A stretch of DNA of 64,000 bases, taken from NCBI RefSeq assembly GCF_003515945.1, contig NZ_QWLM01000008.1, positions 1 to 64,000 on the forward strand. Reading direction: 5' to 3'. The number at the start of each line of letters is the position of its first letter. The stretch's first letter is position 1. Shown here piece by piece: positions 40,296 through 42,087 of this stretch. The translations under genes were made by a program, and so were the position numbers. The notes beneath the pieces were generated by a model. It had not been told where the DNA came from. It saw only the letters and a list, made by a program, of their open reading frames with translations, and made no database searches. Source of the DNA: Dermacoccus abyssi. GTDB taxonomy: Bacteria > Actinomycetota > Actinomycetes > Actinomycetales > Dermatophilaceae.

Positions 40296-40922
40296 TTGGC
40301 TCGCGCCCACCACAAGCCGCTGTTCTTCACCGATCGTGACTTCCAGTCGTTCGCCGGCGCACCCGACCCGGCGGACGTGACGGCGGTGGCGCACGAGAGC
40401 GCGGCCGTGCTCGTGGGCGCGGGGCGCACCAACTCCGACCCCGAGGTGACGCGTCGACTCATCGCGCTCACCGACGAGATCGGCCTGTCGACGCTCGCGC
40501 AGCTGTGGTCGGGGCGTCCCGCAGTGTCCCTCCCGGGCGCGATGTGGCGCCTCTACACGCTGCGCGAGTGGGTGCGGCGGGCGTCGGTCGAGGCGTCGGC
40601 GGACTACACGGCCGGAATCCGGCACGCGCAGGTTTCGCACGCGGTCGCTGGGTCGGCCGACCCGTACGGCCCGAAGGAGATCGAGCACCTCGTCGACCGC
40701 ATTCTCGAGGGCGCGTTCACGGGTGACTTCGCCGTAGCGCTCGAGCGGGCTGCCGCGTTCTGCCGCGTCGTCGCGAGCGGACGGGCCGAGCGCGCGGAGC
40801 GTCACGACGGACACGACGATGCTCGAGCCGACGGTGAGGCGCGTAGCGCTGCGCTCCTCGGTGACACGGCTCGTGACCTGACGAAGTGCGCCGCCGTTTG
40901 GCGCATCGGATCGCTCGACTGA
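40296..40922 (+). CDS. Unknown 208-residue protein after treZ
   Basis: Not recognised. Helical, soluble: MARAHHKPLFFTDRDFQSFA, ESAAVLVGAGRTNSDPEVTR, STLAQLWSGRPAVSLPGAMW, LYTLREWVRRASVEASADYT and a C-terminal Asp/Arg-rich linker. The length, charge and lack of membrane helices suggest a cytoplasmic regulatory or adaptor protein, which is inference. TTG 40296 has GAAGG about 11 bases upstream. It starts 30 bp after treZ and may be part of the trehalose operon. A long hairpin follows at 40947. Confidence 0.6.
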   Translation: MARAHHKPLFFTDRDFQSFAGAPDPADVTAVAHESAAVLVGAGRTNSDPEVTRRLIALTDEIGLSTLAQLWSGRPAVSLPGAMWRLYTLREWVRRASVEASADYTAGIRHAQVSHAVAGSADPYGPKEIEHLVDRILEGAFTGDFAVALERAAAFCRVVASGRAERAERHDGHDDARADGEARSAALLGDTARDLTKCAAVWRIGSLD

Positions 40923-40946
40923 TGTGGAGCGCCTGCTCGACGACGG

Positions 40947-41009
40947 TGGGCAGACTTTCCTGCGCTCGGGCAGCGTCTCCCTCGGCCCGACTGCAGGAAA
41001 CCCTGCCCA
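40947..41009. repeat. 63-nt long imperfect hairpin after the treYZ unit
   Basis: Outer arms TGGGCAGACTTTCCTGC (40947-40963) and GCAGGAAACCCTGCCCA (40993-41009) match at 15 of 17 positions; an inner TCGGGC/GCCCGA stem continues it over a 13-base loop. It is far longer than the other terminators here. It could be a terminator of the upstream operon or a miniature inverted-repeat element. Confidence 0.7.
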
Positions 41010-41092
41010 GCGATGACGCCGGCGGTAGGGGCGGTCCCAAGGTCGTGGCACATGCCACCCGTTCGGGGAATGAAATCGCCGCACTCAGTCGT

Positions 41093-41098
41093 TAGGCT
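41093..41098 (+). promoter_or_regulatory. -10 hexamer TAGGCT of a putative small RNA
   Basis: TAGGCT stands 5-6 bases before the first base of a 13-bp outer stem, with no convincing coding sequence downstream. Confidence 0.45.
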
Positions 41099-41103
41099 TG
41101 AAC

Positions 41104-41233
41104 GTGCGCTGGGCCGCGGTAGCCCCGGGTCCCAAATTCAGCCGCCACGAGCGGCCACGTGCCGAGAGGCGCTCCCGGCCCAGCGTGCTTCACGTCGGAA
41201 CGCTCACCTCGCTGCTGCGGGGTGAGCGTTTTC
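41104..41233 (+). ncRNA. Putative structured small RNA (about 130 nt)
   Basis: Framed by a TAGGCT -10 and a hairpin terminator followed by TTTT. Bases 41104-41116 pair with 41176-41188 (perfect CGCTGGGCCG core, wobble pairs at the base). Inside lie GCCGC-CACGA-GCGGC and GTGCC-GAGA-GGCGC, the latter with a GNRA tetraloop. The start of the outer stem coincides with the expected transcription start. It does not show the GGAAGC asymmetric loop of SRP RNA nor a tRNA-like end, and I cannot assign a family. The only sense reading frame (GTG 41104) is Arg/Pro-rich and unconvincing. Confidence 0.4.
41199..41230 (+). terminator. Intrinsic terminator of the putative small RNA
   Basis: AACGCTCACC (41199-41208) pairs with GGTGAGCGTT (41221-41230), a perfect 10-bp stem whose end runs into TTTT on the plus strand. 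It also lies 25 bp beyond the stop of the convergent gene at 41255. Confidence 0.75.
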
Positions 41234-41254
41234 ATGGGGACGGAACCATGGGCC

Positions 41255-41506
41255 TCAGTGCTCGAGCAGGTAGTGCTCGGCGGCGTCCCGACGCGCCTTC
41301 TCGCGGGCCCGTCGTCCCTTGCCGCGCCACTCGCAGACGTGACACACGCCGAAGCTGAAGTTGCCGTCGTCGATGATGCCGGGGGTGTCGGAGAACACGA
41401 TCTCGTCGGGGGTCGGCTCGGCCCCTCGCTCGATGACCTGCTTCTTGCGTCGCTTGAGGATCTTCTTGCGCGACGTTCCCCCGAGCGCGATTGCTTCATT
41501 CGCCAC
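41255..41506 (-). CDS. Small Cys-pair protein (possible zinc-binding)
   Basis: 83 residues. MANEAIALGGTSRKKILKRR and KKQVIERG are very basic; the C-terminal part GVCHVCEWRGKGRRAREKAR has a CxxC that could bind one metal with other ligands, and ends AAEHYLLEH. Conserved in related actinobacteria as far as I recall, without known function. GTG 41506 is supported by CACACT 7 bases upstream. The protein is transcribed toward the putative small RNA and ends shortly before its terminator. Confidence 0.6.
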   Translation of the reverse strand: MANEAIALGGTSRKKILKRRKKQVIERGAEPTPDEIVFSDTPGIIDDGNFSFGVCHVCEWRGKGRRAREKARRDAAEHYLLEH

Positions 41507-41667
41507 GCCCCCAAGTGTGCATGACGTCGTGGTGAACGACAGGCGAAGAGGCCCCGGATATCCGTGTAATGATCATCACGCTTGTGGACGCTTGTCCAAC
41601 TAGGTTGCTTCACCGGTTGGGGTGAGACGCGGGTACGGCTGCAGGCGGACGCTGTTCGAGAAGGACG

Positions 41668-41701: not shown

Positions 41702-41726
41702 GCCGAAGCCAGAGGTAGTGAACCTC

Positions 41727-42087
41727 GCTCAGCGATTCTTTCCTGGCTGAGCTCGGTGCGGCGCTCCGGTCCGGTGCTCGCTACGCTGCGCTCCGATCCT
41801 CACGCCGCTTCGATGCGCGACTCCGTACGCCCGGAGCCCGGGGCACCATCCTCGCTTCGCTGCGGTGGTACCCCGGGCTCCGTTCTTCGTCGACACGACC
41901 TCCGCTCAGCCGATTCCTTCTTGGCTGAGCTCGGTGCGGCGCTCCGGTCCGGTGCTCGCTACGCTGCGCTCCGATCCTCACGCCGCATTCGCTCAGCCGA
42001 TTCCTTCTTGGCTGAGCTCGGTGCGGCGCTCCGGTCCGGTGCTCGCTACGCTGCGCTCCGATCCTCACGCCGCATTCGCTCAGCCGA
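41727..42087 (-). repeat. 87-bp hairpin-bearing repeats downstream of pstB
   Basis: Two identical 87-bp units (41904-41990 and 41991-42077) plus the first 10 bases of a third that includes the pstB stop codon, and a diverged single copy at 41727-41808. Each unit carries GCTCAGCC-N11-GGCTGAGC, a perfect 8-bp hairpin, and further GC-rich dyads. Between the diverged and tandem copies lies another perfect hairpin, CGGAGCCCGGGG (41832-41843) with 41871-41882. The whole 41507-42079 stretch has no gene. Likely serves as tandem terminators or as 3' protection of the pst message. Confidence 0.9.

Follow-up and report, generated by a model that had tools for sequence, protein, structure and literature searches.

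Results

The window analysed here, a 64,000-nt stretch of the Dermacoccus abyssi genome, carries a compact predicted RNA on the + strand with a promoter in front of it and a terminator behind (Table 1). An earlier first-pass annotation, made from the letters alone, had placed this element between a trehalose operon and a small gene with a cysteine pair. That position is right, but a gene for a 208-aa protein also stands between the trehalose genes and the RNA. Elsewhere in the window, an 87-nt repeat occurs in three copies at 41725-42076, two of them identical and adjacent and the third 86% similar, immediately after the phosphate-type ABC transporter genes end.

Table 1. Features of the RNA locus and its two neighbouring genes, in window coordinates
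Feature	Position	Strand	Description
Gene for 208-aa protein	40296-40922	+	Function unknown, all-helical model; upstream neighbour, outside the RNA
Predicted ECF (sigma-H/SigR-type) promoter	41067-41093	+	GGAAT 41067-41071, 19-nt spacer, GTT 41091-41093
Predicted transcript	41101-41233	+	About 130 nt; start (~8-10 nt after GTT) and end (terminator T-run) deduced from the promoter and terminator, without transcript data
P1 closing helix, 5' strand	41104-41116	+	Partner 41176-41188
Inner P1 extension, 5' side	41118-41122	+	GG, bulged U, AG; partner 41172-41175; covariation
J12 junction strand	41123-41134	+	CCCCGGGUCCCA; near-invariant, single-stranded; columns 37-48 of the 76-member alignment
P2 hairpin	41141-41155	+	GCCGC-CACGA-GCGGC; one pair CG in 53 members, UA in 23
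P3 hairpin	41159-41172	+	GNGA tetraloop GAGA; abuts P1; 4 core pairs within 41160-41171, 100% paired
P1 closing helix, 3' strand	41176-41188	+	Partner 41104-41116
Intrinsic terminator	41199-41232	+	14-bp hairpin, one mismatch, then TTTT
Gene for 83-aa small protein	41255-41506	-	Cysteine pair CHVC; convergent to the RNA

The stretch 41093-41233 has a folding energy of -80.8 kcal/mol, beating 200 of 200 dinucleotide shuffles (z -4.4). The 13-bp closing stem of the first-pass annotation is present, with 13 contiguous pairs of which two are G-U, and it continues further inward than had been claimed: GG/CC at 41118-41119/41174-41175 is followed by A41121-U41173 and G41122-C41172. These inner pairs extend P1 as far as P3, giving a three-way junction in which P1 is stacked coaxially on P3 and P2 forms the third arm. 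Both internal hairpins had also been recognised correctly, the second with its GAGA loop of GNRA type, as had the perfect 10-bp terminator running into TTTT; the terminator arms lie at 41199-41212/41217-41230, their outer 10 pairs are perfect, and the TTTT occupies 41229-41232.

Comparison of relatives supports this fold. An alignment of close relatives has a long near-identical core, and the sequence of the closing stem drifts while its pairing is kept, with double-sided changes at 10 predicted pairs. Across 76 diverse members, 95.7% of cells are in standard pairs, compared with 78.7% in shuffles; double-sided changes occur at 18 of 25 pairs and in 303 cells, against 77.6 cells in shuffles; and the covariation score reaches 0.490, compared with 0.163 +/- 0.008 when shuffled and at most 0.089 with partners slid by 1-3 columns. 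Covariation above both composition and offset controls was our criterion for a structured non-coding RNA, and it is satisfied. The first-pass annotation had suggested looking for covariation in the closing stem in particular, and here all 12 pairs counted (41105-41116/41176-41187) have double-sided changes among the 76 members, with 95.4% of cells paired. This alignment was fitted to R1, a covariance model of closer relatives described below, so the P1 result leans on that model. Pairs 41118-41175, 41119-41174, 41121-41173 and 41122-41172 covary as well (GC/CG/AU/UA), the last two though they are missing from R1, and G41122-C41172 is found in all four Watson-Crick forms.

Two further pairings were discarded. 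RNAalifold draws a CCC/GGG hairpin inside J12, which has no support given its three-base loop and near-invariance. We also preferred the inner P1 pair of columns 36-93, formed in 56/74 and in four Watson-Crick types, to a competing fifth P3 pair (columns 79-93, paired in 53/75).

We assign function to the + strand, as G-U and U-G cells exceed A-C and C-A cells across the structure (120 against 13). The antisense strand folds too (z -3.35), but these counts, the promoter and the terminator disfavour it as the functional strand. Only one overlapping reading frame had been noted before, and it was judged not to look like protein; in fact several frames overlap the RNA. One-base changes in linker length between close relatives, together with the compensatory pair changes, argue that none of them encodes a conserved product, and to that extent the earlier judgement stands.

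The same annotation had read TAGGCT as a -10 element. The hexamer is there, at 41093-41098, but a better promoter, of the ECF form GGAAT-N19-GTT, overlaps it. Sigma-H promoters of Corynebacterium glutamicum follow GGAAT-N18-19-GTT, a consensus that the window's promoter fits, and those of the GGAAC type are common to sigma-H and sigma-E; the Streptomyces orthologue of sigma-H is SigR (PMC10012870). A sigma-70 promoter scan of the + strand at the RNA locus gave no match. Judged by motif alone, the ECF consensus is likelier than sigma-70 to describe the promoter region, and an extra SigA -10 at TAGGCT, overlapping the ECF promoter, is not excluded.

The motif recurs at other copies of the RNA. 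GGAAY-N18/19-GTT lies shortly before P1 in 47 of 124 non-redundant loci, against a background of 0.017% at random positions of these loci, an enrichment of about 2200-fold, and the looser GGAAN-N17-20-GTT in 53 of 124, compared with 0.1% of random positions. As a perfect GGAAN-N17-20-GTT is missing in 71 of the 124, stress control is not universal; a SigA-like promoter form was found at 12, for example in Arthrobacter. RsrA, the sensor anti-sigma factor expected with a SigH/SigR regulon, has a family member in the Dermacoccus abyssi genome and in 194 of 198 genomes of the class, and its co-occurrence with the RNA is uninformative because it is nearly universal. At the other end of the RNA, 21 of 118 loci have a terminator-like hairpin with a T-run no more than 90 nt downstream, compared with 0.4% of control positions. 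Transcription from a SigH/SigR-type ECF promoter is strongly indicated by these predictions in many lineages, including that of the window, and there are no induction data.

A nucleotide search recovered the element at about 80-95% identity in most of 58 relatives. R1, which was built from 30 of the 58 relatives' copies, matches 54 of the 58, and all 51 near-complete genomes (at least 90% complete, at most 5% contaminated) from the family and order. In an even sample of 198 genomes across the class, R1 matches 119 and R2, a second covariance model built from the 76 members, matches 131, covering 60 of 90 genera; the 67 genomes without an R2 match include some that are large and complete. A phylum sample of 296 genomes yielded 22 with R2, all from the same class; no copy was seen in the other classes of this sample, under strict filters that weak relatives might escape.

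A DNA pattern scan of named genomes found at least 120 stretches. The 80 matches listed are all actinobacterial, and R1 recognises the RNA in each of them. Hosts among these listed matches are Streptomyces, Kitasatospora, Nocardia, Gordonia, Williamsia, Mycobacterium, Modestobacter, Geodermatophilus, Nocardioides, Aeromicrobium, Cellulomonas, Isoptericola, Arthrobacter, Kocuria, Rothia, Brevibacterium, Microbacterium, Leifsonia, Clavibacter and Curtobacterium; Microbacteriaceae are thus among the hosts. Genomes with the RNA usually have one copy. The window's RNA is one copy of a family spread through the actinomycete class and, since sequence, fold, promoter and terminator recur class-wide, it is not a chance element. 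We conclude that 41101-41233 (+) is a real stand-alone structured RNA gene with start and stop signals of its own.

Conservation within the RNA is uneven. The junction strand J12 is near-invariant across the family, CCCCSGGNYYCA, with columns C38-C40, G42, G43 and A48 identical in all 76 members; its general form is CCCC, C or G, GG, one variable base, usually pyrimidines, and then CA or UA. P3 reads GCC-GNGA-GGC in 76 of 76 members. In the loci found by pattern, parts of P2 and P3 were fixed by the search itself, while J12 and P1 were left unconstrained; the invariance of P2 and P3 can therefore be judged from a part of the sample only, namely the model-found loci (L088-L107) and a set of long forms, neither chosen by pattern. 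Dimerisation through a palindrome CCCGGG was considered for J12 and is not general, several lineages having CCCCCGG followed by U or A.

In these long forms, P2 is swapped for a longer hairpin, and J12, inner P1 and P3 are retained in those examined, four of which have GGAAC-N18-GTT directly upstream. Some genomes, Streptomyces-like ones included, have a second copy of the RNA of 122 nt, and certain other families have the RNA solely as forms of about 121-138 nt. From the aligned sequences, P1 and P2 look like a replaceable scaffold, and J12 and P3 like the putative working part. The long paralogue lies at about position 2000 of loci L236-L241; several Streptomyces-like genomes have it as their second copy, and another family has it as a pair.

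Neighbouring genes differ between lineages. Of 119 loci examined, 57 have the gene for the 208-aa protein no more than 2.5 kb from the RNA; the protein is encoded in 63 of the 198 class genomes, and all 63 have the RNA. This nesting of the gene within RNA carriers may reflect shared ancestry and old synteny. We rejected the protein as an obligatory partner, as many genomes (such as those of a Streptomyces-like family, f37) have the RNA without it; it has no match in Pfam, NCBIfam or PDB, and its AlphaFold model has no convincing match among solved folds. The convergent 83-aa protein belongs to the fourth-largest neighbour cluster, present in 15 of 30 close loci (single-linkage clustering, in which frames may mix), and resembles Pfam DUF6349 only weakly, below threshold. 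At loci L115 and L141, from Streptomyces and Kitasatospora, the RNA is flanked by helD and a malic enzyme gene, both identified from translated sequences, and in Kitasatospora its orientation relative to these genes is reversed. Linkage to helD was observed in these two genera only.

Catalogued families do not account for the RNA. With Rfam 15 at gathering scores, the whole window contains four tRNAs and nothing at the RNA, and its homologues in 30 loci are likewise without a match (one tmRNA lies elsewhere in a locus). Permissive scans gave chance-level scores only for 40900-41600 and nothing convincing for one Streptomyces copy. The best Rfam score in the stretch, 17.2 bits (E 4.1), is for the c-di-GMP-II-GCG riboswitch (RF03170), from which it differs in falling far short of the gathering score of 47.9 and in lacking a consistent downstream gene. 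RF02829 is Scr4115 and unrelated. The proposal of a new structured small RNA, and the Rfam search that the first-pass annotation had put forward as its check, are borne out by this absence together with the class-wide homologues and the covarying fold.

Discussion

We suggest that the RNA is a stand-alone trans-acting RNA, made in many lineages from an ECF stress promoter, whose scaffolded core binds a conserved partner. We regard this account as somewhat probable, with partner and action both inferred. The ECF promoter (GGAAT, with GGAAC variants also read by SigE) would raise the RNA under thiol-oxidative, heat or envelope stress; P1 would act as a replaceable scaffold presenting a rigid core of J12, the P3 GNGA loop and inner P1; this core would bind a partner conserved in the cell, probably a ribonucleoprotein or a protein; and binding would tune gene expression under stress. 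No partner has been identified and there are no binding data. We favour a core-binding scaffold because the sequence of the presumed working part, with its loops, stays constant while the scaffold varies.

It is doubtful whether more can be said of the target. The RNA may be induced by SigR/SigH and, unlike 6S, Ms1, 6C and tmRNA, use its invariant junction to modulate a central machine such as RNA polymerase, the ribosome or a global RNA-binding protein, a proposal that we consider speculative. In Streptomyces, SigR controls tmRNA and further factors linked to the ribosome (PMC4921905). In a rough test, pairing of J12 with 16S and 23S rRNA is no better than that of shuffles, and no site is common to the lineages.

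The rival explanation that survives best, and that we keep as a tentative possibility, is an antisense sRNA that represses many mRNAs under stress, its C-rich J12 pairing with their G-rich ribosome-binding sites. The actinobacterial 6C RNA and RoxS/RsaE of Firmicutes are thought to act as antisense sRNAs on ribosome-binding sites. J12 is C-rich, conserved and predicted to be unpaired, its variable positions mostly exchange C and U, which preserves pairing to G, and the pyrimidine swaps seen in it (UCCC, CUCC, CCUC) are equally compatible with pairing to G-rich RNA. At putative start regions of Micrococcales genes, the pairing of J12 slightly exceeds that of shuffles, but it has no such gain in Streptomyces start regions, and positions 90 nt into genes pair nearly as well as start regions; gene starts were guessed throughout, which makes this a weak test. 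Nor would antisense pairing require the invariance of P3 and its GNGA loop.

A 6S- or Ms1-like RNA that occupies RNA polymerase is improbable. The RNA is widespread in actinobacteria, and the Streptomyces copy neighbours helD, which encodes a protein acting on RNA polymerase (PMC8655204), but linkage to helD was observed in Streptomyces and Kitasatospora only. At about 130 nt the RNA is shorter than even the smallest 6S RNAs, which have about 160 nt (PMC9130861); it folds into a three-way junction and not into a long helix with a central bubble, and it has no Rfam match; there are no binding data for such a role. Least credible is a cis-acting riboswitch or leader of a downstream gene, which the compact junction fold, aptamer-like invariant core and following terminator might recall, since the window's downstream gene is on the opposite strand, neighbours change by lineage and orientation flips so that there is no conserved same-strand downstream gene, the terminator stands directly behind the RNA, and no alternative antiterminator fold is apparent.

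To our knowledge, few small RNAs are conserved across the actinomycetes, and those that are (6C, Ms1, tmRNA, SRP RNA, RNase P) are housekeeping machines or still puzzling. Here, a covarying family present in about two thirds of sampled class genomes, including Streptomyces and mycobacterial relatives, is missing from Rfam and often has a predicted stress-type promoter. Such a family would add an RNA component to the SigR/SigH response, one that could readily be tested in laboratory Streptomyces. Even without a mechanism, the alignment and covariance model permit class-wide annotation of the gene. We found no account in the literature of the family beyond Streptomyces, of its fold or of its promoter, many subscription papers lying outside the search, and in the literature found its class-wide range and stress-type promoter had not previously been brought together.

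One earlier report probably concerns the same RNA. One article describes scr2952 as an S. coelicolor sRNA of confirmed expression and unknown function, with conservation in over half of the Streptomyces examined (PMC8388888, citing Vockenhuber 2011). Because SCO2952 is HelD (PMC8655204) and SCO2951 is malic enzyme (PMC7494193), the name points to the RNA locus, and scr2952 is probably the Streptomyces homologue; this identification rests on the name and the shared helD/malic enzyme position, without coordinates. The article also states that scr2952 is in Rfam, whereas the Streptomyces loci of the RNA have no Rfam 15 match; a list of Rfam matches in S. lividans does not contain scr2952 (PMC8079986). 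In that article scr2952 differs from the family described here in being presented as a Streptomyces RNA and not as a class-wide family.

Among other known systems, 6C RNA (RF01066) is likewise small, C-rich and spread through actinobacteria, but consists of two hairpins with C-rich loops, and a search of the genome with RF01066 matches only a separate locus (C17:45934-46008, -), so we do not equate the two. At 45.3 bits that 6C copy narrowly misses the Rfam cut-off of 47, and routine annotation would overlook it. Ms1/6S-like RNA (scr3559) is also widespread, stand-alone and actinobacterial, but is longer, with another fold and another gene neighbourhood (PMC9130861). The SigR-dependent tmRNA (ssrA) of Streptomyces is likewise a structured RNA and a member of the SigR regulon (PMC4921905), without relation to the present family in sequence or fold. 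We conclude that the family is new in catalogue terms, probably glimpsed once, as scr2952, and that family and fold are new while their general kind, the stand-alone bacterial structured RNA, is familiar.
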